Part shown: positions 9,901-64,000 of the stretch, piece by piece
Layout of the letters: every line of letters starts with the position of its first letter
Numbering within the stretch: position 1 is the first letter of the stretch
Source of the DNA: Anadara kagoshimensis
Lineage: Eukaryota; Mollusca; Bivalvia; Arcoida; Arcidae
DNA length: 64,000 nt
Reading direction: 5' to 3'
NCBI GenBank assembly: GCA_021292105.1
Contig: CM037870.1
Location: 18,996,424 to 19,060,423, forward strand
Program-made: the position numbers and the translations under genes
The notes under the pieces: model-generated
Database searches by the model: none
Told to the model about the DNA's origin: nothing
Seen by the model: only the letters and a program-made list of their open reading frames with translations

Positions 9901-10220
9901 TTAATTTAGATAAGTTTGTTGTCTACTTCAAATAAGTTCACATTATTGAAATTTGGCTACTACTTAAAAATTTAGTGAAAGGGCTGGAATAGATTTTGTA
10001 AGATCTGGTAATGAACATCTATGTCACTGTAGTTTCTTGCTCCTGAATGTTGGACCTTGGCTAACGTTTAGCTCATTTCATCACTTCAATTGCTGCTGTC
10101 GCTTGTCTAACAACCAAATATAGGTTTTGTTCATTCTTGTATACTTTGTAAAATACATACCCTAATTTGATTCTTTAATTGTTCTGTTTCTTGACGTAGA
10201 TTTTCTAGTTCACTACTCAT
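834..10220 (-). CDS. GNB1: G-protein beta subunit (GNB1-like), 5' two coding exons, partial
   Basis: Two coding exons on the minus strand, join(834..979, 10161..10220), give 68 complete codons. The product starts [20 protein letters not shown] (the amino-terminal helix that forms a coiled coil with the gamma subunit) and continues [13 protein letters not shown], then [20 protein letters not shown] into the first WD40 blade. This is the known layout of G-beta 1-4, which with gamma carries signals from seven-transmembrane receptors at the inner plasma membrane. The start has a good context (TTCACC before ATG). The donor after the first exon is GTATGT, the acceptor of the second is TTACAG, and its donor GTAAGTG splits an Arg codon after two bases. 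The remaining 270 or so residues of a roughly 340-residue protein lie off the left edge. Family membership is near certain; the paralogue number is inferred from general invertebrate usage. Confidence 0.95.
1058..1264. mobile_element. MITE family E (TACTGTAAA ends), CpG-decayed copy
   Basis: A 207-bp element with inverted ends TACTGTAAAC...GTTTACAGTA, including the TA target duplication. It is a nearly full-length match to the copy at 18518-18724. Where that copy reads CG, this one mostly reads TG or CA (for example CCGCGAAAAT there, CTGCAAAAAT here). It is non-autonomous with no coding frame, and the TA target suggests a Tc1/mariner-type mobiliser. Confidence 0.85.
2945..3290 (-). mobile_element. 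SINE-A, near full length
   Basis: Written on the plus strand it starts with TGATTGATTGAATGGG. It passes through TCACCAGCTATAGGTGAAGTG and a GCAGTG..GGCAAGGTGCAG block, and ends with a tRNA-like head read on the minus strand (A-box region near 3275, B-box GGTTTGAACC near 3235). The same architecture recurs at 8752, 16663, 25318, 30345 and 40160. Confidence 0.85.
3365..3523. mobile_element. MITE family T (CTATGTTTCCA ends)
   Basis: The ends are CTATGTTTCCA and, inverted, TGGAAACCTAG, enclosing AT-rich sequence with no frame. Related copies lie at 5993-6125 and 44042-44206, with parts at 9404-9500 and, interrupted, around 57500-57875. Confidence 0.75.
4495..4625 (+). mobile_element. SINE-B fragment
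   Basis: It has the TGGTGGCCAAGTGATCTAAAG tRNA-like head (A box) followed by GAGAAAGTTTGTCAGATTGC and ACACCAGTTTCCTCCACTAT, shared with the copy at 16985. The 3' half is missing. Confidence 0.6.
5993..6125. mobile_element. MITE family T copy
   Basis: A compact 133-bp copy bounded by CTATGTTTCCATTCCTGGA and TTGTGGAAACATAG, which are near-perfect inverted ends. Confidence 0.8.
6147..6326. mobile_element. MITE family P (GTCAAACCTGTC ends), degraded
   Basis: The ends resemble CAGGGTTTACAAGATTC and, inverted, AAGTCAAGTTTGACT. The inside carries repeated GGCC..TTTAAGGAC and TGGTCCTTATATAG motifs shared with copies at 19859, 21147, 27549 and 41649. Confidence 0.6.
7760..8065 (-). mobile_element. 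SINE-A with tandemly triplicated tRNA head
   Basis: The 5' part matches the SINE-A body (CAAGTGCTTGGTTGAAAAG, AACAGTCACTACCCACTTTC). The tRNA-like end, about 67 bp from AAGACCCCGCAGGTTCAAAC to ACTGAACTAAGC, then occurs three times in a row (from about 7856, 7923 and 7991) with only a few differences. Each unit carries its own B-box-like GGTTTGAACC on the minus strand. Confidence 0.8.
8160..8290 (+). mobile_element. SINE-A fragment
   Basis: The head reads GGGTTAGCTCAATTGATAAAT with B box AGGTTCCGACT, followed by TTTGCCAAGCATTTGACATT. It is in the opposite orientation to its neighbours. Confidence 0.6.
8752..9065 (-). mobile_element. SINE-A, near full length
   Basis: Plus-strand landmarks are GAATGAGGTTTTACGTGCTA, CACCAGCTATAAGTGAAGTG, CAATGTGCAGGGAGGGTTCA and TTTTTAAGTCTTGGTCAGGC, with a tRNA-like head ending near 9065. 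Confidence 0.8.
9404..9500. mobile_element. MITE family T fragment
   Basis: It reads TTTGCTAAAACGGACAAC and ACCAGAAATGGAAACAGATG, matching one end of the family. The other end is not recognisable. Confidence 0.5.
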
Positions 10221-10249
10221 GGTGAATTTTTTAAAAAAACAAAAAAAAT
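10161..10249 (-). CDS. GNB1: GNB1-like exon with start codon
   Basis: The exon starts after a pyrimidine-rich acceptor (TTTCTTTTTCAG, ending at 10250). It has 29 bases of T/A-rich 5' untranslated sequence, then ATG at 10220-10218 and 20 codons ending in an AGG Arg codon at the GTATGT donor (10160-10155). No other in-frame ATG follows an acceptor here, which fixes the start. Confidence 0.93.
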
Positions 10250-10374
10250 CTGAAAAAGAAAATAAATAGCAATAGTTAAGAATAATATTGAGCAGGAGTG
10301 GATAATTGAGAATAATGCCCCTAGCCAAGATTCCCTCATTTATAACCATGCAGTAAGTTCAGACATTTCTTTTC

Positions 10375-20106: not shown

Positions 20107-21146
20107 ATGATAGTTCAATCAATGAATTTTTGTGCAACTGGGCCCTGGGCAATGACACGAAGGTAAAACGCGTTTCGTCTGAAGGTAGATTTCCAGGAAG
20201 GACCATATCATCACTGACCACCACAAAATCACGGGCAATGACACAAAGGTAAAACGCGTTTCGTCTGCATATAGATTACCAGGAATCGTGTCTGAAGGAC
20301 CATGTCATCACTGACCACAACAAAATCACGGGCAATGACACAAAGGTAAAAGGCGTTTCGTCTGCATATAGATTACCAGGAATCATGTCTGAAGAATCAG
20401 GTCATCACTGACCACTACAAAATCACGGACAATGACACAAAAAGGTAAAACGCGTTTCGTCTGCATATAGATTACCAGGAATCATGTATGAAGGGCCATG
20501 TCATCACTGACCACCACAAAATCACGGGCAATGACACGAAGGTAAAACGCGTTTCGTCTGAAGGTAGATATCCAGGAATCGTGTATGAAGGACCATGTCA
20601 TCACTGACCACCACAAAATCACGGGCAATGACACGAAGGTAAAACGCGTTTCGTCTGCATATAGATTACCAGGAATCGTGTCTGAAGGACCATGTCATCA
20701 CTGACCACCACAAAATCACGGGCAATGACACGAAGGTAAAACGCGTTTCATCTGAAGGTAGATATCCAGGAATCGTGTATGAAGGACCATGTCATCACTG
20801 ACCACCACAAAATCACGGGCAATGACACGAAGGTAAAACGCGTTTCGTCTGAAGGTAGATATCCAGGAATCGTGTATGAAGGACCATGTCATCACTGACC
20901 ACCACAAAATCACGGGCAATGACACGAAGGTAAAACGCGTTTCGTCTGAAGGTAGATTTCTAGGATTCGTGTATGAAGGACCATGTCATCACTGACCACC
21001 ACAAAATCACGGGCAATGACACAAAGGTAAAACGCGTTTCGTCTGCATATAGATTACCAGGAATCGTGTCTGAAGGGCCATGTCATCACTGACCACCACA
21101 AAATCACGGGCAATGACACAAAGGTAAAGCGTTTCGTCTACATATA
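20107..21146. repeat. 97-bp satellite array, about 10.5 units
   Basis: Units starting GGGCAATGACAC occur at 20147, 20233, 20330, 20427 (GGACAATGACAC), 20526, 20623, 20720, 20817, 20914, 21011 and 21108. The spacing is 97 bp apart from the first two intervals and one 99. Each unit has AAACGCGTTTCGTC (a perfect 10-bp palindrome AAACGCGTTT in most) and CATCACTGACCACCACAAAA. Two sub-types alternate irregularly, with GCATATAGATTACC or GAAGGTAGAT. Diverged units continue at about 21290-21445, 23030-23096 and 23336-23480. Confidence 0.95.
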
Positions 21147-21828: not shown

Positions 21829-22860
21829 TATACACTTTTTAGTCTCGGTATTCAACTCTGGAAAGCGGCAAAGTAGTCTCCCTTAGATATATGTTTCAAA
21901 CACTGATATATCGCACAACCCAATGGACTTCTCGTTTGATATTTCTTAACAGACAACAATTTTCTTTAATTTTGGAAACAAGAAAAAATCACAGGGACTT
22001 AGATGAGGTAAAAATACTGGGTGATTCAAAACAATCACTTTGTGTTTATTTAAAAAATCCATTACAATTTTACCCTTGTGATGTACATCATTTACATGAG
22101 GCAAATGAATCCCTGCAATAATTGTTTTACGACGCCTCTGCTGAAAAAATTTGTGCAGGACACATTGCTTGTAAAATTCACCAGTCACAAATTTGCCAGC
22201 TGGAGTAGACATCTGAACAACAGGTCCATTGGAATTAAAAATTTTACGTACAGAACCTATATAGTGCTTTTGTTTCTTTTGGCAACAACAGGGCGTTTTC
22301 ATTTTTTGTTCGCCACTGCTTATTGTCAGCACGCCTTAGGCGTTTAAACATGTAAACCCAAGTTGCATCGCCCGTTAGAAGAGTGGAAAATTTCCTTCTA
22401 TCACAATTTTGAAACATTTTTCAATTTTCTAGAGAACATTTAATTTTGGCACCCTTCTGTTCATTAGTCAATAAATGTGGTAACCACCTTGCACAAATCT
22501 TTAGTAGACCTTAATGTTTTGTCAGAATTTAATGAACACTCCCTTGTGAAATCTGTAAGAACTCAGCTATCTCCTATGCTTAATATCTTGCAACTTCATT
22601 TATTAGATCCTGCACAGATTGAATGTTTTGGTCAAGGATGTCTTCGGCTGTCCAGGACGGGGGTCATCTTTGACATCAGATTTACCCCCTTCAAATATTT
22701 TAACCATTTAAAAACTGTTCTCATTGTCAAAATAGTATATCCAAAAAAATTACACAATTCAGAAAATATATCCTTGCCTGGTATTTTCAATGTTCTGCGG
22801 CTTTTTGTGTAGTTTCTACTTTCAACCTTATTAAAACCTTTCATTTTGACCCGTGAAATA
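21829..22860 (-). pseudogene. Mariner-type transposase relic
   Basis: Minus-strand frames together give a decayed IS630/mariner transposase. A piece around 22700-22840 resembles the amino-terminal helix-turn-helix region. GDATWVYMF near 22370 matches the first catalytic Asp motif (GDETW). HPVFLPHLSPCDFFLFPKLKK (ending near 21950) matches the HPPYSPDLAPSDFFLFPKLK-type block with the last catalytic Asp. The segment where the middle Asp should be reads AGIHLPHVND and has lost the usual DNA. Several frameshifts and stops separate the pieces, so it cannot encode an active enzyme. It sits inside the diverged part of the satellite. Confidence 0.85.
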
Positions 22861-24093: not shown

Positions 24094-24600
24094 CGTCTTT
24101 ATGGAATCTCGCATATCCTTTAAGCCACCCAGTCCACATCTCTATGGAATCCCATTTCATGTCTTTAAGCCACACAAAACATGTCTCAATGTAATTCCAT
24201 TGTATGTCTAAGACACACAAGCCACATCTTTGCATGTCTTTCAGACACCTAACCCACACCTCTATGGAATCCCATTGTATGTCTTTAAACAACCTAAACC
24301 AGATCTCTATGGAATCCCATTTCATGTCTTTAAGCCACCAAACCACATCTCTATGGAATCCCATTGTATGTCTTTAAGCCACCCAAACCACATCTCTATG
24401 GAATCCCATTTCATGTCTTTAAGCCACCAAACCACATCTCTATGGAATCCCATTGTATGTCTTTAAGCCACCCAAACCACATCTCTATGGAATCCCATTG
24501 TATGTCTTTAAGCCACCCAAACCACATCTCAATGTAATCCCATTGTATGTCTTTAAGCCACCCAAACCACATCTCTATGGAATCCCATTTCATGTCTTAA
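24094..24600. repeat. 45-bp minisatellite, block 1
   Basis: About 11 units of ACATCTCTATGGAATCCCAT plus TTCATGTCTTTAAGCCACCC AAACC. Because 45 is a multiple of three, several frames stay open on both strands. These are repeat products with no start or splice context. Confidence 0.95.
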
Positions 24601-24749
24601 AGCCGTAGAAATTATCGACGTGTGTTTTCGTTTCTGCCGTTTTCGCCAGAAATTTAAAGAATTCAAAAATGGAAGCTGTCAGACCACAAACCTCCAAAAA
24701 GTCAAAAAATTAAAATGGGGCTTTAGTGGGCTGATTAGTCGGACTAGTC
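24601..24749. other. 149-bp unrelated segment splitting the minisatellite
   Basis: It starts AGCCGTAGAAATTATCGACG and has more CpG than the array around it, including GTTTTCGTTTCTGCCGTTTT CGCC. No frame or terminal repeat is evident. It is probably an insertion. Confidence 0.5.
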
Positions 24750-25312
24750 TTTAAACCACCAGAACCACATCTCTATAGAATCCCATTTCATGTCTTTAAA
24801 CAACCTAAACCAGATCTCTATGGAATCCCATTGCATGTCTTTGAGGCACCCAAACCACATCTCTGGAATCATATTACACGTCTTAAAGCCACCCAAACCA
24901 CATCCCTATGGAATCCCATTGTATGTTTTTAAGCCACCAAAACCACATTTCTATGGAATCCCATTTCATGTCTTTAAGCCACCCAACCCACATCTCAATG
25001 TAATCCCATTGTATGTCTTTAAGCCACCCAAACCACATCTATATGGAATCCCATTTCATGTCTTTAAGCCACCCAAACCACATCTCTATGGAATCCCATT
25101 TCATGTCTTAAAGCCACACAAACCACATTTCTATGGAATCCCATTTCATGTCTTTAAGCCACCCAAACCACATCCCTATAGAATCCTATTGCATGTCTTT
25201 AAGCCACCCACACCACACCCCTATGGAAATCCTATTGCATGTCTTTAAGTCACCCACACCACATCCCTATGGAATCCTATTGGAAGTCTTTAAACCACCC
25301 AAACCACATTGA
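24750..25312. repeat. 45-bp minisatellite, block 2
   Basis: About 12 more units of the block-1 consensus. The 152-codon plus-strand frame at 24790-25248 is the repeat read as a HVFKPPKPHLYGIPF-like peptide, not a gene. Confidence 0.95.
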
Positions 25313-27959: not shown

Positions 27960-29400
27960 TAATATTTGTCCAATTTTACCAAAATCCATGGATATCTGAC
28001 AAGTTGTTGAAGAAACTCTATACATTCTTCTTAGACACATATATAAGCTATATGGATACAAAAAAGTCAAAGTGTATCAAGTGGCCTTAATGTAACAAAA
28101 CCAAAAGCTCGCAAGATGATATGCTTAGCTGAACTAAACACTTTGACTGTTTCTTTATGACATTCTGTTTTTGATATGTTTTGATATTATGAATACTGTT
28201 ATTTAAGCATTAAACTTTGTTTGTAATGGATCTTAACCATCATAGATCGATTACAAAGTTTAATGCTTATTGGTACTTATATTTACAATCCATCGCTTAC
28301 AACATACAAGTTTTTTATAAATGTGATCGATTCATTCATTTTTTTTCGTGGAAATTCCATGTAAATACCAAACAGGTTTTAATTGGATCAAACTAGGTTA
28401 GTCCCGCCTACTCGTTTTCAAAAAACGACAACACCAGACAAACCTGTCAAGATTTTATTTTAAATATCTGTGTTTTTACAATTCATATTAATATTTACAC
28501 TACAATTATTAGTGTAATTAAAAAGTGTAATTTATGTTTATCTTAATGGGTTTTTTTTTACATTCCGCTTCTTGACACGATAATTTGTTTACAATCGGCA
28601 ACTTGACACATGTATTTGTGTTGTTGCCAGCGATACAAAACGTCATGATGTAATGACGTCAGAAAACGAAAGGTCGCACGTGAAACTTTCGGTCTATCCT
28701 GTAATAGACTAAATCAATTGCCGAATAGTTTATTACAGAGAATTTGATTTGGATTGTAAATATATTTCTATATTCAGCAAGACAACCAAAAATTTTAAAA
28801 ACCGAAATGGTAATTGCCCTGTACGTAGCAATAACAAATGTGTTATTACCACATATTTTATTATTATGTATTTTTTAATATACATGTTTATGGGCTATAT
28901 AGGGTTAAGAATTGCTTAAATGCATCAGTTTAGTGATAATTAAAGTATAAATATAAAAGAAATTTGTCATATTGGGTCAAATAATACATCATTTTGATCA
29001 AAACCGTAAATACGTTTTTATATCTGCCATTTTGTTTTCACCATATGGTCAGATCGTTTTGCAGGTCAACATGATCAAAGATTGATCATCCATCATTTAG
29101 ACAACATTTTTTTGGAAAAATATCAATAAAATTTGAATTTAATTCTAAATTTGACTATTTAATCCTATTCAATCGATGTATGTGAGGGTGCATATGGATA
29201 AACAGGTATAAATAAAATATGTGGTGATAACATCGGCCTTTTAAAAAACACTCTTTGATTATTGATCTGTTTGATTAAAAGATTTTAATGTTTTCATTTT
29301 TTTGAAAAAAAAACCTCTCATGGATGTCTCAAACAAAAATATTACTAGCATATGATCTTAAAAAAGTAGAAAAATTACCCGATTGTTATATATAAATTAC
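27960..29400. other. Intergenic stretch with hairpin and CpG pocket
   Basis: It has an imperfect palindrome at 28204-28269 and a CpG-retaining pocket at about 28560-28710. The pocket holds a perfect CRE palindrome TGACGTCA (28654-28661). The remainder is AT-rich without a recognisable gene. Confidence 0.65.
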
Positions 29401-30680: not shown

Positions 30681-31862
30681 ATTCAACTGGGCGCAGCTGT
30701 TCAAACATTATAAAGTTTTACTTTTGCCATAAGTGAGGTGACGAAGTTATTAAGGGGCATAATAAGATTTCAGTATCTCAAGTCAAAGTTATAGAGGGTC
30801 ATTATAATGAGGTTTTACTGTGGTGATAAGTGAGGTGATAAAGTAACTGAGGGGCATGGTGAGAGGTAAGGTGGGAGTTTTTTAGAGACATTGTAACAAG
30901 GTTTTACTGTACATCTGGATTACAACCAAAACCTATTCTATAACCAGGCATTGATAATTAAATCAACCTATAAATAAAAAGCACCTGTATATTAGAAACA
31001 TTCGCAAATGTTTTACATATAATTATTCTTAAAACACTCGCAAATGTTTTACATGTAATTATTCTAAATGCATGGGTCCTACCAGTTTTGGGGTCCAAAA
31101 ATATAGGAAAAATAGGAATATGGGGTCAAAATTATAGGAGTTTTATAGGAAATTATATGAGTTTTCACCAAAAATTATTGGAATATTTTTAGAATAGTTT
31201 ACACAAAAAATATACATCCATGACCTCCTTTTCTCTTTTTCAGCCATTCCCTTTCCTCCAGCCATTCCCTTTCCTCCTTTTACTAACAAATATAAAATAC
31301 TGGCAACGTCAATGTACACTTACTGCTTTAGAAATACATGTATATAAATGTTAATCTTCTTCAGATATGTACTACATGCGGGAAAAATGTTCCCATTCTG
31401 AGTTCCTGATGCTACCAGTAACAAAATTATAGGAAAATATAGGCGGTTTTTCAAATTATATAGGAAAATATAGGAAAGGGACAAAATTATAGGAAATATA
31501 GGAATGGTAGGACACCTGTAAATGCTTATCTACACAATTTTCAGCCCAATAATTTTATAAGCATTAAGTTTTTTCTCTTTTATATTTTTTTTCAAGTTTT
31601 CATCAAATGTTCAAAATTGCTAAAAAAAATCAATCACTTAATGCTTTGTTCATTATATAACATAAGACTGACAGGAAATCAAGGCTCAGATAAAATAATG
31701 TCAAACTGCTTGGCACTGTGCCAAGTAATCAGGCATGGTGTACTCTGCATCAGGCAGTAAAAAAACAGCACACGGACAAGAAATCGGTGAGCTATTGCTC
31801 ATTTAGTATGCCCCCGCTTTTAACTCCCAACTCTAAACAGTAAATGTCGAAAAGTAAACTAA

Positions 31863-32258
31863 GTCAGGTAACAGGAAGTAGATGTCTTGTAGACTTAAAA
31901 TCAGTATTTATGACATGAGACCTCATACTGAACTGACATACAAGTCAGTTAACAGGAAGTAGATGTTGGGCAGACGTGAAATCAGTACTTGTGGCATGAG
32001 ACCTCATACTGAACTGGCATACAAGTCGGTTAACAGGAAGTAGATGTTGGGCAGACGTTGGTATTTGTGCCATGGTACCTCATACTGAACTGGCATACAA
32101 GTCAGTTCACAGGAAGTAGATGTTGGGCAGATGTGAAATCAGTACTTGTGGCATGAGACCTCATACTGAACTGGCATACAAGTCGGTTAACAGGAAGTAG
32201 ATGTTGGGCAGACGTTGGTATTTGTGCCATGGTACCTCATACTGAACAAGCATACAAA
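31863..32258. repeat. 76-81-bp tandem repeat, five units
   Basis: AGGAAGTAGATG starts at 31873, 31954, 32035, 32111 and 32192, so the spacing is 81 bp except for one shortened unit of 76. Units 3 and 5 share the variant GACGTTGGTATTTGTGCCAT, which suggests duplication of a two-unit block. Confidence 0.93.
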
Positions 32259-33298: not shown

Positions 33299-33769
33299 TA
33301 CTGTAAATATTGAAATTTTCACAGTCATTTTATTTCATAAATTCATGAGATTAACAATCTTTGTGAAAAATTTATTTTGACATAGGCATTCATAATTCAA
33401 ATATTCACTCTCATGCATAACAATTTTTGCAAGAATTTAATTTCATACAATTCACTTGTATTTGCATTGACAATCATTTGACTTGAAAATAAAAGTATGT
33501 GAATATCTCAAAATATCAATTCTCATATGCAACATTTTTGATGAAAATTTTATTTTGATATGATTTACATGCATTTGCATTGACAATCATTGGATTTGAA
33601 TATAAAAGTATGTGAAAATCTTGAAATAATGATTCTTTACATGCAACAATTTTTGAAAAAAAAATTATTTTGATAAAATTCACTTGCATTGGCAATCATT
33701 CAACAATGTGAAGATAAAAGTATGTGTATATCTTGAAATACTGACACAAAAGTTTCATAATTTACAGTA
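33299..33769. mobile_element. Family-E-like element with internal tandem repeats
   Basis: The ends are TACTGTAAATATTGAAATTT and, inverted, AGTTTCATAATTTACAGTA, with TA at both edges. Inside are three to four diverged units of about 110 bp sharing TTGCATTGACAATCATT and AAAATAAAAGTATGTGAA. Confidence 0.7.
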
Positions 33770-33965
33770 TTTTAGGCAGGCACACATTTTTTAAAGATAT
33801 ATATCTCTAGTATGAACATAAAAAACACCATCACACTAAATATATCTAGCTTATAAGGGAGATATTCATACCACATTTGTAAAATGAAAGTATAATTCAA
33901 TTGTTTTTTTCATCTTTTTAAAACAAAAGACCTAACAAAAATACAAAATATACAAAATATTTTAT

Positions 33966-34910
33966 CTAGGTCACAATGACCTACTGGTACTCTGAATAAA
34001 ATTTAAGGAGAAAATTGTTTCTATAATATATAGAGAATAACAAGTAAAAAAATAGAAATTTTTCTAAATAAAGATTAAAAAATAACAAGACTAAACGAAA
34101 ATGTAAAGTCTCTAGGTCGCTGTGACCTACTTTTTATAAAAACATGAAGGAAATTTTTCTAATAAATAAAAAACTAAGACTAAAAGCATGAAATTCTCTA
34201 GGTCACTGTGACCTAATTTTTATAAAAAATATGTAGAAAATTTTCATTATAAATAACTAAGAGACTAAACAAAAATAAATTCTCTAGGTCACTGTGACCT
34301 ATTTTTATAAAAAATAAGAATTTTTCATACATAAAGATAGAAAATAACAAGAGACTAAACAAAAATAACTCTCTAGGTCGCTGTGACTTACTATTTATAA
34401 AAACATAAAGAATTTTTTCTACATAAAGATTGAAAATAACAAGACTAAACAAAATAGTCTCTAGTCCTGACCTACTTTATAATAACATGAAGAAAAATTT
34501 TTCTTAATAAAGATTGAAAATAACAAGACTAAATAAAAATAGTCACAGTGACCTTTTACAAATAAAAATCAGGAATAGGAGATTATTTTGTTGGTTTTTT
34601 TTTGAAAATACAGATACAAATAAGAAATATTCTAGGTCACCATGACCTTCTGTGAATAAAAAACATAAATGGGAGATTATCATTTTTTTCAAAATACAGA
34701 TACAAATAAGAAATATTCTAGGTCATCATGACCTTCTGTGAATAAAATACATAAATCGGAGATTATCATTTTTTTCAAAATACAGATACAAATAAGAAAA
34801 TTCTAGGTCACCATGACCTTCTGTGAATAAAATACATAAATCGGAGATTATCATTTTTTTTCAAGATACAGATACAAATAAGAAATATTCTAGATCATCA
34901 TGACCTTCTG
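33966..34910. repeat. Tandem array of oestrogen-response-element palindromes
   Basis: Diverged units of about 80-90 bp each carry AGGTCANNNTGACCT. Perfect matches are at 33968-33982, 34200-34214, 34286-34300, 34634-34648, 34720-34734 and 34805-34819. One- or two-mismatch versions are at 34114-34128, 34375-34389 and 34892-34906, and decayed ones lie near 34457 and 34541. The rest of each unit is A/T-rich (for example AATAACAAGACTAAACAAAA, or CAGATACAAATAAGAAATAT in the right half). No coding frame fits. The motif identity is seen directly; any receptor binding is inference. Confidence 0.9.
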
Positions 34911-34929
34911 TGAATAAAAAACATAAATC

Positions 34930-35700
34930 GGAGATTTTTTTCAACATACATTATTACAGACAGAAAATTGTATAAAGGTGTCTATGATAATACAAAACAA
35001 GAGAGAAAGTGTGTGCTAAAATTAAGAACACAGTGAAAAGTATAAAATAAAATATAAAGCACAAACTATACTCGAGAATTATAAATGAACAAAAAAAATA
35101 ACAAAGCTTTGGAATATTCATACTTGGTATGGAAACAAAATAGCAACACACACGCATACACATACTCACATTAAACAAGAGAAGAAAAAAAACAATTCTC
35201 ATACTATGTATGGAAACAAAATCATAACACAAAGTGACAAAACACACACATAAAAAATTAGAGAAGAAAAAAAAAACCATCAACAACAATGTCCATACAT
35301 TCAAATCTTGTTTTCTTGAACACAGATATCTCAAATTTCTGTATAAATTGAACTTTTCAAAGTCCGGAATGAGTTACACGTTATTCAACCAAAAATGAGT
35401 TACAAAACATCTTTTGATAAAATTTAATTTTAACTCCTGTCAGGAGCTTGGTGGATTTTTCAAGAAATGTCTATGATTATTTTTTTCAAACTGACCTCAA
35501 GGCTTTGGAATGAAGACCAAAACTGAATGATTTTTCTTTTCCATCAGCAAAATAGAAATGTCAAAGAAAGAAAGATGTAAAATTAACACATCTTGGATAG
35601 ATGAAGAAAACAACAAAATTTATCAGTTAATGTGAAAGGCATGGCGAATATGGAAGTGAAAATGAAGTTTCTTCCGGTTTACAAAAGTGCAATCATTCTC
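34930..35700. other. AT-rich intergenic stretch
   Basis: Two short related blocks sharing ATGGAAACAAAAT and CACACACAC..ATA lie near 35130-35260. The 126-codon minus frame here is low-complexity (Phe/Leu/Tyr-rich from poly-A/T) and has no family resemblance. No other feature is visible. Confidence 0.6.
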
Positions 35701-35719
35701 CCCTTTTGATTGCAATTCA

Positions 35720-35853
35720 CAAAGGATATGTCAACAGATATCTCAATGGATATGTCAACAAATATCTCATAGGATATGTCAACAGATATCTGAATGATTA
35801 TCTCAACAGACATGTCAACAGATATCTCAACAGATATCTCAATGGATATCTCA
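35720..35853. repeat. 12/24-bp tandem repeat with GATATC palindromes
   Basis: Units alternate GATATGTCAACA and GATATCTCAA(C/T)(A/G), so AGATATCT-like palindromes recur. The plus frame reads YVNRYLNG repeats and is not a gene. Confidence 0.9.
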
Positions 35854-36005
35854 AACCTCAGATAAGTCCAACTGTTTTAATTTTCCACGTTGAGTCAAGA
35901 TAACAAGATTTAACTGTATTTTATGTTAAAACACACCAAATAATTTAGTTAAAGCTATGGTTTCACTAGAATAAAACTATATAATATATGATAATTATCA
36001 TAAAA

Positions 36006-36290
36006 ACAAAATCATTTTCTCCGATCGTGTATCTATACGCTTAATAAATTAACAAAATATTTCTCCGATCATGTATATAAACGCTTAATAAATTAACCAA
36101 CCAATTATTTCTCCTACCATTTACATATATGCTTGACAAATTAACAAATTATTTCTCCGTTCATGTATATATACGCTTAATAAAGTAACAAATTCTTTCT
36201 CCTACCATTTACATATAGACTTTATAAATTAACAAATTATTTTTCTGCTCATGTACCGGTATATATATATACTCTTAGTAAATTAAGAGA
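36006..36290. repeat. Tandem repeat of about 45-50 bp, five diverged units
   Basis: The core TTTCTCCGATCATGTATATA plus ACGCTTAATAAATTAACAAA recurs at about 36016, 36060, 36108, 36160 and 36240. Confidence 0.8.
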
Positions 36291-36408
36291 TTAAAATTTT
36301 TTAATTAAATTAAAAAATTATAATTACTATTTTCATAAAATTTCATTCAATTCTTATAAAGAAATATTACAATCTAACTTCACGTTCACTGTCCATACAA
36401 TGTTAGTT

Positions 36409-37275: not shown

Positions 37276-38238
37276 GAATCAGTAAGCCACTTAGCCGCTG
37301 AGGGGCCAAAACTTATATGAGATATTAAAATGAACCTTTTATGTAATGACATAACGGTAAAAATTTATAAAATTTATAAAAATTTATAATTCATTTAAAA
37401 AGGTTTTTATTATCATTTTAGGTAATTAATTAATAAATCATGGTAATATTTAGTTAATTAATGAAATATCATAACTTAAAAAACGAAGACTGTCACAAAC
37501 TTACAATATAATATTATACATGTGCATTTTCAGACAAAAACACAATTCAAATTTATAAAATTTTTAGACAAAAACACAATTCAAATTTTATAAAATTTTA
37601 TCAAAATTCTGTTGAGAATACATGTATTAGAGACATGTTGATACATATACCCCAACAAAAAGCTAAAAATTGAACACTTTTTAAATTATTTGTAAAAAAA
37701 ATAATTTAAATTTTCAATCAAAAGTGTGAAATTTTGTTAATTGTACTAATGCTGTAATAATGCCATCTGAAATTAAAACAGAGATTAATTAATACTTGAA
37801 CTAGAATGAACACAAAACTGGGTTTTTGTTTAATAATTGTCTTAACATTCTCTCCATGTAAAGTTGTCCAAACACTGATTACAGCTTATTAATTGATGAT
37901 GATGTGATGACAGTGAAATTGGTGGTGGTGCTGCTGCTGCTGATGATGATGATGATGGTGGTGGTGAAATAACAACGATGATGACGGGATTATGGAAATT
38001 ATGATGGAATGATGAAAATGGTGATGAAAACAATGATGATGATGAAAACAATCTTGATGATGATGATGATGGAATGATAATGAAGATGATTATGATAATG
38101 GAATGATATGATAATGGAATGATGATCGATATGTACAACATTGTTATTCTGTGAGTGTGATTAAAAAGTTGATAAAAATATGACCATATTGTTGCCACTA
38201 CTCATGTGAATTTGTGTTAACAACCTCATTGGCTGAGG
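37276..38238 (-). other. 3' flank / probable 3' untranslated region of the ATPase gene
   Basis: It holds a duplicated CAGACAAAAACACAATTCAA-type block (about 37532-37605), a GAT/GGT trinucleotide tract at 37888-38125, and possible minus-strand AATAAA signals (for example 37406-37411). I cannot place the true polyadenylation site. Confidence 0.5.
37888..38125. repeat. Interrupted (GAT)n/(GGT)n tract after the ATPase stop codon
   Basis: The plus strand reads runs of GATGATGATG and GGTGGTGG, so a minus-strand transcript reads (AUC)n here. It lies 114-350 bases past the stop codon, within any normal 3' untranslated region. Confidence 0.9.
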
Positions 38239-38559
38239 TTATACCAATTTTGTCTGACTATCATCACAAGACGGAGCGTAATCACCAGTATCAACTTCTA
38301 CAACCGAGAAGGACGGTTTAACGACTTCCACTGAGGCACCATTGGGCAAGACGGTAGTTGCAGAGTCACTATAGCTCGATTTGAAATGGTTCTCTGGCAG
38401 GGTTCCATTCATGCTGGCGACACGACTAATTGGCGGCCAATCAGGTGTCTCGTCGATTTCCTGTTCGATTGTATGATATTCATACTGACTTAACGGAAGA
38501 CATCTTTCTACCATTTCAAGGCACTTTTGACGCACATGGGCGTTATCCAATAGATAAGT
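38239..38559 (-). CDS. ATP13A3: ATP13A terminal exon (918-1023): cytosolic tail
   Basis: It enters after TTTCTAG with [20 protein letters not shown]. Then comes TPDWPP, the family's (D/E)PxWPP tail motif, followed by a low-complexity Ser/Thr/Val-rich end and TAA at 38241-38239. The tail is longer after WPP than I expect for the vertebrate proteins. Confidence 0.94.
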   Translation of the reverse strand, partial: TYLLDNAHVRQKCLEMVERCLPLSQYEYHTIEQEIDETPDWPPISRVASMNGTLPENHFKSSYSDSATTVLPNGASVEVVKPSFSVVEVDTGDYAPSCDDSQTKLV

Positions 38560-47500: not shown

Positions 47501-50500
47501 ATCTATGAAAATTCTTAGCGAGTTCTGTAAAATAATAAACAATTTATTTATAAATGCTATCAGATCAGTCAGATTGAAATGTGCTAATCAAAAACAAACA
47601 TAACTATCAATGTCCTAATCACAATCCAGGAGCAAAGTAAAGACTTTGGAACTACAAATCAGGTTAGACACGTGAACTTCCCCCAGGGGCCGGGTGCTCC
47701 GGAAGAGTAAGCAAAATGAGACTCAAAATCAGACTAAGATCTTAACCTCTCAATATCCAATCACACATTCCATTATCCTGGTTTCAAAACAAGCAAATTC
47801 AGAAAATTATGATCTCTGCCAGTAACTTTTTTTGTGATTTACACTTTTGTTCAAAAGTTCATAACTCCCAGGAAAATGACCAAACAAACTTGCACATGTC
47901 CTATCAATTTTGATGCTTTGTACCAATTTTCGTAAAATAGTGCTTCATAGTTTTTGAGAAACACTGTGATCAAGAAGTGTCTGGACAGACAGAATGAAGG
48001 ATGGTACTTTTGAATTTAACTATGTGACTGTTACCTTAATGGTATAGTATTTTTAATTAATTCAAGCAATTTGATAATTTTAAATCTCATGGAAAATAAA
48101 ACTGAAATCGTCCAATATAAGGTGGCTAGGGATGGTACGATATATCGGTATACCGATATACCGACAATGGGCTACTCCCAATGATAATCGATAATGATTT
48201 TTCAAATATCGGTAAGTAACTAGAAAATCCAAAACTGCAGAAAAACGATTAAAAGATCGATTATATAAAACAATGCCTTACTTGTTTTTATTTATATTTA
48301 TTTAAACAAGCTCCAATTGTCATAACATGTGCATTTGTACATACAGGTAAGTATGTCATCAATTCTTGGGCACCTCTAAAATGATGCGAAATCCTTCAAA
48401 TACTTGAACGAACCTTATTACAGTAAGAAGTACTCCAAGCATATGCATGATTAAAATACGCTTTAGTATTTTAGGGAGTTAGATACGAAGAATCAAGACT
48501 TTTCTCCACACAGATTATTTTTCTGATATGGATCAATAGTTATTGGCATGAAAAGAATGATAATTCCAGCGATAGCCAGCCCTAAAGGTGGCCGTACTTT
48601 ATGGTTGATTTACCCCATTGTCTATCCTTAATCCTACCTTTTCATGAGTGACTTCTTCTACTTTCTTCTTCATATCATCAGCATACACAAACTCTAGTTG
48701 TGGTTGGGTATTGCCATCGGGTGGAAAGAATGCCTCAGCCATAATGACTGAATCCTGTGGCTTCACCATGCCACATTCACGAGCCACACTTATAGCTGTT
48801 AACATGTTATCACCTGTAAATATCAAAACAAATTAAGAATAAACTTTCAAAAGCGAGTTTTAACATATCACAAATTCTAATAACTTTGTATTTCCATGGC
48901 ATCTTTTCTTTAGATACTTATGACTATGAGTTACAGGTGTATGTCATTTTATAAATATTACTTTTTTGATAGGGTGATAATATGGACTGTCACCCTATCA
49001 GAAATGAAATATTCATTTTATCATACTGATTGTTGGTGTTTATCATGCTGTGTAACCAAAGTATACTGGATTGAAAATCATGACAACCAGCTGTCGACTG
49101 TAAGCAACTTATGAGACGCTTGTAACATTTATCATATTTAACATTATTTTAGAAAAGTTTTTTACTGATTTAAAAGATGAATGTGTTCAAATCACATACT
49201 CAGTTTTTCTGTTCATGTGACATTTTTCATTAAAACATTAAAAATGTTCACCTTTTCTAACATAATGTTAAAATGTGACTAATCTGTACATTACTACTAC
49301 TGTAACTGTAATGACATCACATATAATACTTGCAGTGTCTTGGAGAAAGCGTAATTTAAAGATTCAAACCGCTACTGTTTCAAGACTTATGCATTATCAT
49401 AAATTACTTTACATGAAAGAATTTGACATCACTGAACATTGACACAAAAGAAGTTACAAAATAGATCTATGTGACTCTGGATGGACTACTTTTTATATTT
49501 ACTTCTTTCACTGCACCAGACTGTACAGGTTATGTTAATGTATACTGTGACATGTAAATGGATCCCACAGTATTTCATTCACAATATCTACATGTCAACA
49601 GATCCATTACATGTATCACGATACATATCTCACAATAGAACAGATTTGTTCCATTTGTGTCCCTTCCAGGAACAATTATTTCAAATGCAAACTTATTTCA
49701 TGGTGAGGCGACTTTCAACAAAATCCAAGTGACAGCAATTCTTAACATCTCTGCTATGTTATGCCATACATAAAAGTAAAATTTAGCTGCCCAATAAATA
49801 TATCAGTGGTACCTTTGTATTTCCTCGTTAATATACTTACCAGTTATCATTACAGTTCTAATATTAGCATTCAGTAACTGATGTATCACAGGTAAAGTCT
49901 GTGGTTTAAGTTTGTTCTCCATGACAACCAAACCCAAAAATATCAAGTCCTTCTCCACCTGCTCTCTACAAAATCAACCAAATTATGTCATAATTTCAAG
50001 ATGTTTTTGTAAACTGAAAAGACTGAAATCTGGCTGGAAAAATGTTAAAAAAATTCAGATTAAAACTGGCTAAGTGAAGTTATATAGATGGGTTGGTGGA
50101 TTAATAATTTATGTGAAAGTTAATTCATTTCACTAATATTAAGGTGGTCAGTTTTGGAATGGTCGAGTAAACTGGAGTTCCAAGTAAAACACCAATCCGG
50201 CAAGTGAATTGACCTCATTTCTGCAACTAAGATCTGCCAAAGTGGGATACAAACCTAGAAAGTGAAAAGCACTTGGATCCATAACCTTTAGACAACAGAA
50301 GATAATTTTTTTTTAATGGAATATTTTGCTAGTCAAAAATTTTTCACTTATAAGTTATATCAAGACAGTCAGTTTAGGAATGGTGGAGGAAACCAGAGTG
50401 CTTGAAAAAAATCACTGACCTTTCGCCAAGTGAACTGAGGAAGATGAAAGAAATTCAAGATAAAATAAAAATTCCAAATTACCTTTGCATTCGTTGTATT

Positions 50501-56500: not shown

Positions 56501-59500
56501 ACCCACAGGATGATTTGATCAGGACAAGTAGAAACAAGCTTACACTCATTATTGCATTAGTAATACATGCCCCTTGTAAGCCACAACTACCAAGAATACC
56601 TGAAAAACTTCAATTTTGTAATACTTTGTTGAGAAAGACAGGTGGATGGTGAAACAAGTAGACATGCATGTTCATAATGAGACTTACGGTACATAACTAT
56701 AACTTATGTTGAACATGATCACTAAATTTCATCAAAATCCAATAAGCGCTTTAGGAGGAGTTGCAGATACAAATTTTGTGAACAGATATGAAAGGACTGA
56801 AAGATGTATGGAGGCAGGTTCATAACAGGGTTGCTTAACTAAGCATTTAACTGGACATGTCCATCAAATTTCCTGAAAATCTAATAAAGGTTTTAAAAAA
56901 AACTGGGGTAATGGTGTTTTGTCTCCATCAAGATTTTTTCATTTATATCGAGTTGGTCAGTTCTGGAATGATGGAGGAAACCAGAGTGCCTTGAGAAAAT
57001 CATCAGCCTTCTGCAAGTGAACTGACAAAACTGTCTCACACTAGGGTCTGTTTCAAGTGAGACGGTAAGAGGCACTTTGATTCATAAGCTGGGATGTTTA
57101 GGCAGATACAACTTTTGTGGACAGACAGACAAACAGATGAACAATGACAAACAATAAAGTCCCCTTTTATTTTCACTGACCGGGGACTCAAACACTTACA
57201 TCCATAACAATTGAATATATAAATCCAATCCCTGCTATGGCAGCCAATACACCAACAAACTTGTATGTATCCTGTTCAAACTTGAAATCTACTGGCTTAG
57301 GATAAAGTATAGATCTCACTAATTCTCCCTTCGCTGTTTGAAATCCTGTCATATAAACAATACACTGTATTAATATATGTGTTCAGATCCGCTGAAATTA
57401 AAATAGACACACTTTTCAGAACTGGTCATAACGTCTAGAAGTCGTATTTAAAATCTGATATGAATTTGAAACCTTGGATTTCAATAATCTGATATGCTAC
57501 AAGTGTGTTCATTCCTGACCAAATATGCCACTGGCTACAAAGTTCTGAGAAATTCTTACAAAATTTTTCTATTTTAGCAAATTTGTTAAATTTTTTTTTA
57601 AAAAAAATTTAAAAAAAGATGATATTTTCGCAAATGGGATTCGCCGCTGTACCACGTGATACCCTCTAACGTTTGCGTGGAACACTTATTTCCAATGGAT
57701 ATGGAATAATATGAGACGACGTTTCCCTCGAAAATGATGTCAATCCGGAATCTGTGACGTGACATTTTCCAAAATGTTCAGCACAAAAGTTAAGAGGTAT
57801 TGATCAGGTGGTACAGCGGCAAACCCCATTTTGGAAATATGGCAATTAATAATTCTAAATTTGTTGAAACCTAGATAATATAGAAAAGACTCATTAAACA
57901 CAACGATTACTGTAGAAAAAGCCTGATGTTACTGACATAAATATTTGTATTCTTTTGAAAAAATTTGTGAAATTATTATAATATCGATGATATTTACCTG
58001 TTCATGTAACAACAGCTTTATCTTTCTGGTTGCCATAGTAATGTTTCTGAATAATGTCAATAATGTAACTACAATTATTACAATACTAATAATATTTACC
58101 TGTTCGTATGACAACAGCTTTAACTTTCTGGTTGTCATAGTAACGTGTCTGTATAATGTCGGTGCCAGAAAACAGTACATGTCTGGAATGCTCATTTGTA
58201 CAAAACTTGACATCGGCAGAGTCACCAGACATTGATATTTTGGGATTTGGTAATGGTGTTTTGGTAACAGGGACACTCTCTCCTGCAAAAGGAAATAAAG
58301 TCAGGATATCAATGATCAGTTAAAATCAATAGCTAAAAATAAGACAGGTATATTGATAAAGTCTGTAAAAAAAAATCAATATATTAGCACTTTGAAATTT
58401 GGAAAATTTTTCTGTTTGGTGTGAAATGATAACAAAACATGAAATTGGCTACCAATCTGAGCTGTAGCAGACAAACCGTAATTGTGACTTCAAACTACAA
58501 GTTGGTTGTCTGAAGGCATTTTGAACATCTTTTGTATGAAAATAATGCAGTTTTACTTTAATTGCTGGACCAATATTTCCAATATTGGACATAAGTCATA
58601 ACTTCCAACTACCGTAATTTCAATATTTTCCATTGTGGTATATCCGAGATGTTTGAAAAAGTTATCAGTCATTCCAAAAACAACCAGCCTCATACAGTTG
58701 GGACTAGCTGTTTATTTCAACAATGATATTTCATAGTCAAGTCCTGTGACTGATTGACTGACAATCACAGGGTATTATTACCTGTTAACATGCTCTCATT
58801 GACGATACAGTTCCCGCTGACAAGGACGGCATCACACTGCATTATACATCCTGATCTAGGTATCTCTATCATATCACCAGGTACTAAATCTTCTGATGAA
58901 ATGTCCTCAAAAACTAAAATAACAAAGATTGATTGATTGAATAGGGTTTTACATCACAATCAAGAATATTTCACTTATATTGAGACATAACCATGTACTA
59001 AATCTTCTGACGAAATGTCCTCAAACATAGCACTGCAGTGCTGATCTACAGCGTAGTTGCAAATATGCTGTAAAAGGGAAGAAAATTGAAATCTACCCAT
59101 TCATACAGATATGGGGGTTTTGAAAGTTGTGACTGGCATATTACATAGAAGTTGAAGGAAAATATTCCAGCATATTTCAGTAACTGTCACAGATTTTATT
59201 GGACTTGTGTAATTTTTTAAACACACTCATGATTGATGATCAAATGATGTTCACATACTTGAATTATCAATATGATGTTTTATTCAAAGTGTATCAGATC
59301 TTACATTCATCAAATACAAAAAAATGTATTGATGAACTCTACTCTGAAAATCGGAAGAACTTGACAAAGCACTACAATTTTCATTTGATGAAGATGATTT
59401 CTCCATGTTGATGATGATGTGACATTAGCAGCAACAGTAGAACTGTGTCACAACCACCACTACCATCATCATCAAATTCATCACTATCAGAAATCCTCAT

Positions 59501-59588
59501 GTCAAATGATTATAATAGTATCATCATCAGCAGCAGCAGTCACAGCAACAGAACTGACAAGTCACCACCACCACACACCACCACCACC

Positions 59589-59622
<34 letters not shown>

Positions 59623-60320
59623 TCATCATTCCTCATGTCATATCATCATCAATATGGTGACATTATCATGAATCAGCATCATTATAAGCAGCAGCAGAAT
59701 TTAATGTCATCCACAACATCATCATTATCAGAAATCACCTTTATGAATCATCATCATCATTATTGGCAGAAGCAGGAAATAATGTCATCACTACCATCAT
59801 TATCATCATCTTCATCAGATCATTACCACCATCATCATCAGATTTACTCATGTCATCATCATCGTCATCACAAATCTTTATGCCACATCATCATCAACAT
59901 GGTGACATCATTATAATTATGAATCATCATTATCTGCAGCAGCAGAACTCAATGTCACCACCACCACTACCATCATCATCATCATCATCATCATTACCAT
60001 AATCAGATTTACTCATTTTATCATCAGCATAAGGACATTGTCATTATCATCATGGTCATCATCATCATTAATCATCATCATCATCACATCATAATCATAA
60101 TAACTCATGTCACATCATGATCAACATGGTGACATTTTCATGAACCATCATCATCATCATCATCATCATGAATCAGCATCATTTTCAGCAGCAACAGAAC
60201 TCATGTTACCATAAACTATCATCATCATCAGATTTACTCGTGTCATCATCAACATGAAAACATCGTCATCATCATCATATTTACTCATGTCACACCATCA
60301 TCAACATTAAGACATTTTTG

Positions 60321-60395
<75 letters not shown>

Positions 60396-63300
60396 CAAAG
60401 CTACATGTCACAAATGTCACATCATCATCCAAATGGTGACATCATTATTATAATGAATCATTGTCATTATCGGCAGTAACAGAACTCATGTCACCACCAT
60501 CATCAGCAGCATCAGAACTCATGTCACCACCACCATCGTCATCATCATGTTGCATTACATTAACATGTTGACATCATCTGTAGAACTCAATTTCATCACA
60601 ACCACAACCACTATTGTATCATCATAATCATATCATCAGAACTCCTCATGCCACATCATCAACATGGTGTCATCATTGCATGAAAAACATATATATTTAA
60701 ACCCTGCACCATGACCAGTCACTGCCTTTGAAATAAGTTGCTTTACTCCCCATTGTTTAAGTCAATGATTTAATTCACAATTAATTTGAATGAAAATGAA
60801 ATAAAATTTTTGTTTTGTATACTTTAGTGCTAATTTAAATGTTGTTAAAATTATTGATGAATATATATAAATTGACCAAGTGAGCTTAAAAAGCCTGAAT
60901 TGGTATAAACCATTCTTGCACGATTTTGTTTTGTTGCGAAATTTTTGACAACTGAGATATTGTGTGTTAATTGTAAAAATTCCAGGTAAAACGTGTAATA
61001 CACTTAAGGGCCGATTTTCGGGTAAATCGTTTTTATTTCCGAAGGGGCTGCAATTAATCCAGGATCCTGATTTTTTAGGACCAATCAGAAAAAATTATCT
61101 TTTATCAATCGTTTGCAGCATCCTGTTATCTGTAGTAGAAAAAAGTTCAACACCAAAAAGTTGATCGACGATCGCGCAAAAATATTTAGTCTAGTTTTTT
61201 TTTTTTTTTTTTTTTTTTTGCTGCATATATATTTTAATTCTTCACTTTTGTATGATTATTTTAAGATAAAATCATAAAAATTCATTCAGTAAAGCCTCAC
61301 GGAAACCCGAATAAAAAAGACGATCTTGACAGTTTGCACCGACGTTCTTCTTTTTGACCTACATGTGGTTGTTCACAGTCGCCGCCATATTGGATTTTTA
61401 AATTTATGCCAAGAGATATCGATAAATAAACACAAAATATGGTCTTTATACAGCATTTTAAGTTGAATAAAGTTTATAATCAACACAAATATATTCACAG
61501 CTATCAGTGTTGAAAGCAGTTTTAATTTTCCCGAACGATTTTGTTATGAAAATGAAAATATGATAATTTTGAATATGGGGAAATCCTGTCTATCCTCCGA
61601 ATCTCTCGATATCGCAGTGTGGTTGAAATCGGGGCGAAATATGTTGCAGAGATCCGAGAATAAAGAATAAAAGCTTTGACATTTAACTCATTATAAAAAG
61701 GACAGGGTGTCGTGATCATCATTTAAAAAGTATCAACAAACAGACAGGAGCTACGCCATGAGTTAGGCATCGATATCGTAGTTCATGAATATATGCAAAT
61801 TAGCCATGTGGTTGGGGCATTCTTGTGTTCTGCACTGGAAAATCGGTTCAAACAGAAACATATAAAACACGTTTCTGGTCCAGATTGAAAAAAGGACAAA
61901 AGAATATTTTTTTAAATATTTTATTAAATGTACAAATCTGTTGATAAATACTCAATCGCCGTATTCCATCTTTCAGTTTGGATGGGCGGACTACTTTTTT
62001 GTAGGATTAATTACTTGCCAGATGCAATCGTCAATTACCTGTGTAAATGTTATTTGAACGTTTCTAGCTGAATTTTATGCACGCTGTTTGATATGTAAAC
62101 AAATCTAGCTAAATTTATTAAGATGTAGCCTAACAGATCTTGCGTCCCTTAGTGCGCACTATTTCCTGATGCATACTTATTTCAGCGCAAAGAGGTTGAT
62201 CTTCTAATGCCAGGCGGTGACATACTACAGCTTACGCTGTTTCGCTTACTATCGTAAGCTAAACTCAGCGTGACGCTGTAGAAAAACTTAAATGACAAAG
62301 ATTGATTGATTAGAGTTTTATGTTGTTGTCAAGAATATCATACATATATTGAGATGTCACCAGCTATAGGTGAAGTGGAAGAATTTTTTACATTTGCAGT
62401 GTGCTCAGAGCAATGTGCAAGGAGGATTCTTTAATGGCAGCCAAAATGACAAGCTTTCTTACACTAGAAACTGTTACAAGTGGGATCCCGGCCTAGGTAG
62501 AGAAAGGCACTATGATCTATGTGGGCTTGTCCTGGAGCAAAGTTAAATTTAATTTTGCTGAAAGAACTGCCATACAGCCTGGTTAAGGGCTTAAACCCAT
62601 GACTGCAGTCTGAGTCATGAGTCTGCGACCATGAACACTCAGTCATTTTTTTTTACCAGACAACAGTACAGAAAATTAATCAAAAGGAGAGGATTTTACT
62701 AGACAGTCTCTTGAGAGACAAATACCTCCTGTCCCCAAAGGTCACATGGATGGACACTAAACCTGGAATGCGACACATTGTCTCATGTTAGTTAGTATAC
62801 ATTAGTGTTAAGTTGGATCATGCACATGAAAGACAAAATATTGGGACGGAAGAACAAGGTGATTCCTATATATGCCTTAAACTTTGTTTGCAGGAGATAA
62901 AAAATACCTACTGTCATTTCCTCTACATACACTAATAACTAATGATGATTCAATGGTATTCCTTAATGCCCTTTGATTCTGAAATAAAGAAACACAAATG
63001 TGAGAAGTTAAAATTACATACGTTTCATTTATCTTTTTTGTTAAAAGAAATTGTATAGTAAAACTTCAGTGAATTAGAATCCCCTGTCAGTAGATGCTTT
63101 TGCACGTATGTTAAAAGGGGCATGATTCCCAGAAAAATGAGCAAACCCAATTCAGGTTAATATGTACATCTCCTATCAAGATTGATGCTTTGCACAAAGT
63201 TTTGTGAAATAGTGCTTCATAGTTTTGGAGAATTATTAGTCAACAAGGATAGACAGATGGACGAAAGTTTGAATATAATATCCCCCCTGTCTTCCTTTGA

Positions 63301-63536: not shown

Positions 63537-64000
63537 CTGTAATTATAAGACAGAAGGAACACATAAAACGGAGATAGCACCTGTAATTATAAAACAAAAA
63601 GAACACATAAAACGGAGATAGCACCTGTAATTATAAAACAGAAGGAACACATAAAATGGAGATATTATCTGTATTAAAGAACACATAAAACTGAATGCTT
63701 GGAACACATAAAACGAAGATAGCACCTGTAAGTAAAGAACAGAGGGGACATATAAAATAGAGATAGCACTTGTAATCATAAGACAGAAGGAACACATAAA
63801 AACGAACCTTTGAAACACATAAAACTGAATACTCAGAACACATAAAACAAAAATAGAACCTGAAATTATAAGACAGAAGGAATATATAAAACTAAATGCT
63901 TGGAACACATAAAACTGAACACTCAGAACACATAAAATGGAAATAGCACATGTAATTATAAGACAGAAGGAACACATAAAACTGAGATAGCAACTGTATT
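63511..64000. repeat. 44-bp minisatellite made of the exon A acceptor region
   Basis: About ten units of GGAACACATAAAACGGAGAT AGCACCTGTAATTATAAGAC AGAA, running off the right edge. The first unit is the functional 3' splice site and first 25 bases of exon A (63512-63556). Later units drift, and some are shortened to about 23 bp (GAACACATAAAACTGAATRC TYR). The 144-codon minus frame across it is the repeat. Confidence 0.95.

Follow-up and report, generated by a model that had tools for sequence, protein, structure and literature searches.

Genes and repeats around the array

The palindrome array described here lies at positions 33966 to 34955 of a 64,000-nucleotide stretch of the genome of the bivalve Anadara kagoshimensis, referred to below as the window. 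The coding features nearest to our argument are the following.

38239..38559, minus strand: last open reading frame (ORF) of a P5B (ATP13A-like) ATPase-like gene, two other exons of which match ATP13A2
10131..10358, minus strand: weak candidate for the initial coding exon of a gene for a G-protein beta subunit (PDB E 0.015; Pfam E 0.017, under the cut-off)

The first of these minus-strand genes looks like a P5B ATPase by its matches to ATP13A2, at 48599-48832 (E 2e-6) and 58086-58319 (E 1.1e-5); its last ORF gave no match in PDB. The stop codon, TAA at 38239-38241, is about 3.3 kb from the end of the array, the distance given in the preliminary description of this DNA. Because eight polyadenylation-type hexamers (AATAAA or ATTAAA, from 37829 to 35423) precede the array on the strand of the gene, the array is more likely to be intergenic than to be part of the 3' UTR of the ATPase gene. 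The next minus-strand gene, to judge from the candidate exon at 10131..10358, seems to begin on the far side, which suggests that the array is situated between two minus-strand genes. Eight ORFs compared with Pfam gave two weak matches, both under the curated cut-off; Rfam returned no match at the gathering score, and no tRNA was found. An ORF at 21946-22335 on the minus strand, without a match in Pfam, reads like a fragment of a mariner-type transposase.

The window is rich in tandem arrays, which account for 59 overlapping TRF rows. Besides the palindrome array, sizeable ones lie at 20197-21146 (97 bp), 24118-25309 (45 bp), 31861-32257 (81 bp) and 63512-63992 (44 bp). A separate 113-bp repeat of about 2.5 copies, at 33419-33744, stops about 220 bp short of the palindrome array, and long stretches rich in CAT/CAC-type trinucleotides are found at 59563-60537 and 38018-38126.

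Structure of the array

TRF and unit alignments resolve the array into eleven units of about 86 bp that bear a palindrome (u1 to u11; the palindrome is called the box below) and one remnant that bears none. No strand is assigned to any of these features.

33966..34955: whole array, eleven palindrome-bearing units and the palindrome-less remnant
33968..33982: u1 palindrome AGGTCACAATGACCT, perfect (motif scan and flank alignments)
34036..34103 (approximate): remnant of an A-type unit, lacking a palindrome, that separates u1 from u2 (local alignments)
34112..34473: family A boxes of u2 to u6, namely 34114 (one mismatch), 34200 and 34286 (perfect), 34375 (two mismatches) and about 34457-34473 (deletion)
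34540..34554: hybrid box of u7, two mismatches (unit at 34547; flank alignments)
34597..34940: family B units u8 to u11, with boxes at 34634, 34720 and 34805 (perfect) and 34892 (one mismatch)

TRF reports the array in two rows, 34047-34541 and 34597-34936, both with a period of 86, the matches amounting to 76% in the A stretch and 95% in the B stretch. From u1 to u11, successive box centers are separated by 146, 86, 86, 89, 83, 82, 94, 86, 85 and 87 bp, that is, by 82-94 bp everywhere save between u1 and u2, where the A-type remnant sits. The remnant aligns locally with the segments u4-u5, u5-u6 and u6-u7, at scores of 66.5, 73.5 and 70.5, respectively. The earlier statement that each unit carries one palindrome does not hold strictly: the box of u6, counted among the eleven, is damaged by a deletion inside the palindrome, and the remnant lacks one altogether. 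The box of u7 has lost part of its left arm, and in all 5/11 boxes are degraded.

Number and form of the palindromic sites

The window contains six perfect AGGTCANNNTGACCT sites, at 33968, 34200, 34286, 34634, 34720 and 34805, all within 33968-34819, and the array holds four more with one mismatch (34114 and 34892) or two (34375 and 34540). The preliminary description had counted six perfect sites and at least three near matches, with spacers CAA, CTG, CCA and TCA; both observations are borne out, and CAG occurs additionally in u7. The six perfect sites conform to the sequence definition of an oestrogen response element (ERE), AGGTCANNNTGACCT or GGTCANNNTGACC. They agree with the true consensus of an inverted repeat with three-base spacing (IR3) in all 12 half-site bases and in the spacing, and their identification as the classic target sequence of the oestrogen receptor (ER) is thus correct as far as the letters go. 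Three bases is also the sole spacing in which perfect half-sites were seen; there were no IR0-2 and no IR4-7 arrangements.

Allowing up to two mismatches, the whole window has 14 sites, whereas 100 shuffles of it averaged 2.03 such sites and never exceeded 7; four of the 14 are scattered outside the array, at 29063, 29596, 46958 and 53015. Dinucleotide shuffling of the array region produced a perfect site in 0/3000 trials, and the shuffling of single units, a check proposed along with the original observation, produced none in 20000 shuffles of each of the two units tested. For independent bases, the expectation of a perfect site is 0.002 per 64 kb, or 2.7e-6 per 86-bp unit. Two considerations limit what follows from these figures. 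Since the units are copies of one another, the independent events that generated the palindromes are few, perhaps one to three rather than ten. And because many arrays, motifs and windows are open to notice, the low expectation is not decisive for function.

Two monomer families and a hybrid unit

The alignment divides the units into two families of nearly equal length, A (u2 to u6) and B (u8 to u11). Between their boxes the two families are barely more alike than shuffled sequences are: in 15 pairs of inter-box segments, a comparison that omits the letters of the box but uses box positions as segment ends, identity was 0.780 against 0.750, with a mean z of 1.85. The box plus the adjoining CT, compared for u2-u5 and u8-u11 and leaving out u6 and u7, differs in 16/224 cells, and all 16 differences trace to changes in u2, u5 and u11. 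As u2 and u5 have the same A-to-G change, a damaged box may have been copied between them. The only gapped word of 8+3+6 letters common to the A and B stretches is CTAGGTCANNNTGACCT. The longest contiguous common word, however, is AAAAACATAAA, 11 bases in the right flank, against 10 bases for TCTAGGTCAC on the side of the box. In register, A and B align with a score of 22.1, above all 68 rotations (best 21.2). The position of the longest common word and the advantage of the in-register alignment indicate that A and B are probably distant relatives.

Unit u7 combines the two families. Its left flank is of family A (best z 12.3, against 2.3 for B; the comparison with two of the five A units was indistinct, 41/300 and 40/300 shuffles doing as well), and its right flank is of family B (best z 8.1, against 1.8 for A). 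Likewise, the segment between the boxes of u7 and u8 has a mean global z of 8.12 to B and of 0.55 to A. With an A flank on the left and a B flank on the right, the switch between families falls at the u7 palindrome. A second transition behaves differently. The right flank of u1 is nearer to B than to A (best z 4.3 versus 3.1), its left flank is ambiguous (2.7 for A, 1.3 for B), and the change to A-type sequence, which falls in the interval from the u1 box to about 34036-34045, does not coincide with a recognizable box. Hence, one monomer-type transition, from A to B, is at a box, and one is away from any recognizable box.

Conservation of the box

The preliminary description held that the palindrome is conserved better than the rest of the unit. 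Within either family this is not so. The variable columns number 4/12 in the half-sites versus 38/85 elsewhere in family A (Fisher p=0.55), and 1/12 versus 7/72 in family B (p=1.0); expressed as differing cells, the figures are 16/116 versus 191/663 for A and 3/72 versus 22/423 for B. Across divergent units, in contrast, such a tendency does appear. The column test for the half-sites gave p 0.059 for the eight A and B units that remain when u1, u6 and u7 are left out, and p 0.098 for all eleven. When the most conserved 15-column block was compared with permutations, a test that is biased by anchoring, as the units were cut on the palindrome itself, values as low occurred in 21/2000 permutations for u1/u3/u8 and in 19/2000 for u1/u4/u9/u7, both subsets of our own choosing, in 75/2000 for all eleven units, in 1227/2000 for A alone and in 1871/2000 for B alone. 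This block is the palindrome, or overlaps it, in every set except B. The array accordingly resembles a conserved-box satellite, with head-to-tail units and one segment that is less variable across divergent types, although more weakly so in the A+B set (230/2000). The original proposal had regarded equal divergence of the half-sites and the remainder as evidence against itself, and within the families there is indeed no excess of conservation; the excess appears only across divergent units.

Other arrays of the window served as controls, represented by those units that a fuzzy anchor search found with room on both sides, a subset of all units (23, 8, 4, 9 and 4 for the 45-, 97-, 81-, 44- and second 44-bp array). 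The 44-bp array at 63512-63992 has a strongly conserved block (0/2000), a biased result, given that the anchor used to delimit its units lies within this block; the other four yielded 1893, 1187, 1632 and 357 of 2000 permutations as low. A palindrome containing G+C (arms of six bases with at least three G+C, spacer 0-6) was present in at least two units of none of 14 other window arrays tested, so that a palindromic box is not a routine by-product of arrays in this window.

Modest as these statistics are, they show a box that is well kept between divergent units and that is not guarded unit by unit, since 5/11 copies are degraded and there is no excess of conservation within families. This pattern fits better with survival through amplification than with present-day constraint on each site.

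The same palindrome in bacteria and viruses

We also searched prokaryote genome contigs (84,980 species, according to the database) for pairs of perfect palindromes separated by 62-92 bases, a pattern that would miss other spacings. It occurred in five stretches, four of them in one scaffold of Cohnella panacarvi and one in Vibrio albus; such tandem ERE arrays are thus rare, the paired motif being present in just two of the prokaryote species scanned. In Cohnella panacarvi (NZ_KI911563.1, L012:3935-4930), the array consists of 19.9 copies of a 50-bp unit and contains 17 of the 18 perfect AGGTCANNNTGACCT palindromes of the locus. Three more loci on the same scaffold (L011, L013 and L014) have runs of 5, 3 and 10 perfect sites, with a 51-bp spacing in L011. 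The Vibrio albus stretch (NZ_QFWT01000011.1, L015:7033-7189) is an imperfect 33-bp tandem repeat whose units are GGTCANNNTGACC-like, and its locus includes two perfect AGGTCANNNTGACCT sites. Bacteria are not known to have nuclear receptors, so these are not required for tandem arrays of perfect EREs to arise. In viral contigs the paired-box pattern and the B-unit pattern each had 0 matches; the pattern CTAGGTCANNNTGACCTWCT matched ten contigs, once each, which is the chance level by a rough estimate.

Interpretation

The array is real, and we favor the view, with a probability of about 0.58, that two monomer families of about 86 bp make up a short composite minisatellite, in which the palindromic box of 15-17 bp is the best-preserved part common to both and a likely site of unit exchange. 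Among the options originally put forward, namely an enhancer, a decoy or a satellite, the last is the best fit. Two families of similar period with scant similarity in their flanks, one hybrid that switches at the box and 5/11 decayed boxes are what the sequence presents. In this model, the exchange and renewed amplification of units would take place at the box. Units that otherwise have little in common would undergo unequal crossing-over or template switching that resolves there, boxes would persist through amplification, and units left behind would decay. The similar spacings in A and B argue for such an exchange box, as do flanks near the shuffle level next to a box plus CT that is nearly constant. 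The gapped word CTAGGTCANNNTGACCT, the conserved block at or over the palindrome across divergent units, the likeness to satellites of Meloidogyne (see below) and the wealth of tandem arrays in the window point the same way. Against it, the switch at u7 is a single event, and a random breakpoint would hit the 18-bp box of an 86-bp unit about 1 time in 5; the change from the B-like flank of u1 to the A remnant is at no recognizable box; the longest word common to A and B is in the right flank and not in the box; and a comparable palindromic box is absent from the 14 other arrays tested. Given that word, and the advantage of the in-register alignment over the 68 rotations, A and B may just be anciently related families in which selection has preserved the box. 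On balance, the box probably serves as the site of exchange and may drive it, and its identity with an ERE is probably coincidental, or the box is at most bound opportunistically by a receptor.

A mechanism that would act through the structure of the DNA appears unlikely to us: the palindrome would extrude or fold during replication and so promote amplification or deletion of units by itself. The perfect arms can form stems of 6-7 bp with three-base loops, and 7/11 sites fold at -4.1 to -4.8 kcal/mol, which places them in the top 0.2-0.5% of 21-mers in the window for stability; the loss of palindrome bases in u6 and of part of the left arm in u7 is what hairpin deletions would produce. Such stems are short, however, the other four sites are at -1.6 to 0 kcal/mol, and elsewhere in the window 70 loci likewise attain the threshold of -4.0. 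Furthermore, the changes in the arms are not compensatory, those of u2 and u5 leaving G-T pairs and that of u11 breaking a pair (AGATCA opposite TGACCT).

It seems to us quite unlikely that the array is a homotypic nuclear-receptor element, in which ER-type (NR3) dimers would occupy the boxes and the array would serve as an enhancer or insulator of a neighboring gene or as a receptor sink. The exact IR3 consensus, with no other spacing, speaks for it, as does the persistence of the half-sites across divergent units while the spacers vary. There is also published evidence in vitro for the earlier statement that a mollusc ER binds the consensus: the recombinant DNA-binding domain of the ER of the snail Marisa cornuarietis is reported to bind GGTCAnnnTGACC without ligand in EMSA (PMC3778743). 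The same paper mentions, as data not shown, an apparent absence of binding by the ERR of this snail, and describes ligand-free activity of the ER LBD for a construct that, according to a figure legend, also carried VP16 (PMC3778743). In view of the snail gel shift, occupancy of such an array by ER in a mollusc would be plausible, and a receptor function of the array is possible to this extent. Nevertheless, half-sites that are no better kept than the rest within A or B, the degraded boxes and the amplification of the same perfect motif in Cohnella panacarvi, which shows that this form of array needs no receptor, leave the enhancer and decoy options of the preliminary description without support.

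In bivalves, many short satellite-like arrays sit inside non-autonomous rolling-circle elements (Helentron, HINE or pearl type), but in our estimate this is very unlikely to be true of the present array. In the oyster, Cg_HINE elements are described as carrying short arrays of divergent monomers with two common conserved segments (PMC7492417), and the array here is short and in a repeat-rich stretch. The greater length of most Cg_HINE monomers (140-180 bp) is no argument against this origin, because the study screened only 100-500 bp (PMC7492417). A BLAST search of 33400-36400 against the window, with the dust filter on, did not, however, find a second copy outside that stretch.

Most improbable of all is a perfect ERE amplified in a lophotrochozoan genome as the best-preserved part of two dissimilar families, with ligand-independent binding by a mollusc-type ER maintaining the box and shaping the expression of a neighboring gene; the upkeep of a box by protein binding has a parallel in CENP-B on alpha satellite.

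Taken together, the evidence fits better with an ordinary repeat array that has a conserved box than with a hormone switch. As a plain minisatellite, the array adds one more case in which divergent monomers have preserved a short box; were its boxes bound by a receptor, it would represent a naturally occurring homotypic cluster of EREs in an invertebrate. The bacterial arrays caution against taking even a run of perfect 12-base matches to a response element in a tandem array, on its own, as a sign of receptor targeting.

Comparison with known systems

A literature search gave, among the matches listed, no title on ERE-bearing satellites in molluscs, and among the matches listed for papers that print at least one of five 15-17-mers none was, by title, on a satellite or a mollusc. 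An accumulation of EREs has been reported on snake Z chromosomes (PMC8303610). With the consensus ERE, the array shares the 12/12 half-site bases and the three-base spacing in six units; it differs in being a tandem minisatellite with 5/11 boxes degraded, whose likeness to an ERE is one of sequence. The repeat of Cohnella panacarvi has the same perfect AGGTCANNNTGACCT, in 17 boxes and 20 units, but it is bacterial, with a 50-bp period and other flanks.

Among repeats of molluscs, satellites with junctions at a palindrome have been described (PMC5139131). The arrays of oyster Cg_HINE, like the one discussed here, are short and consist of divergent monomers in which some segments are conserved locally, although that study covered monomers of 100-500 bp and the units here are of about 86 bp (PMC7492417). 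The closest precedent that we found, as far as the published description can be compared, appears to be the satellites of Meloidogyne, in which a 17-bp, CENP-B-box-like Box 1 is reported to be kept among monomers whose identity falls as low as 32%, and two transitions between monomers are reported to coincide exactly with Box 1 (PMC3694981). Divergent monomers with one short box in common are found in both systems, and transitions at that box may be a further likeness; the array of Anadara kagoshimensis is short, its palindromic box has the very sequence of an ERE, and one transition only is at the box.
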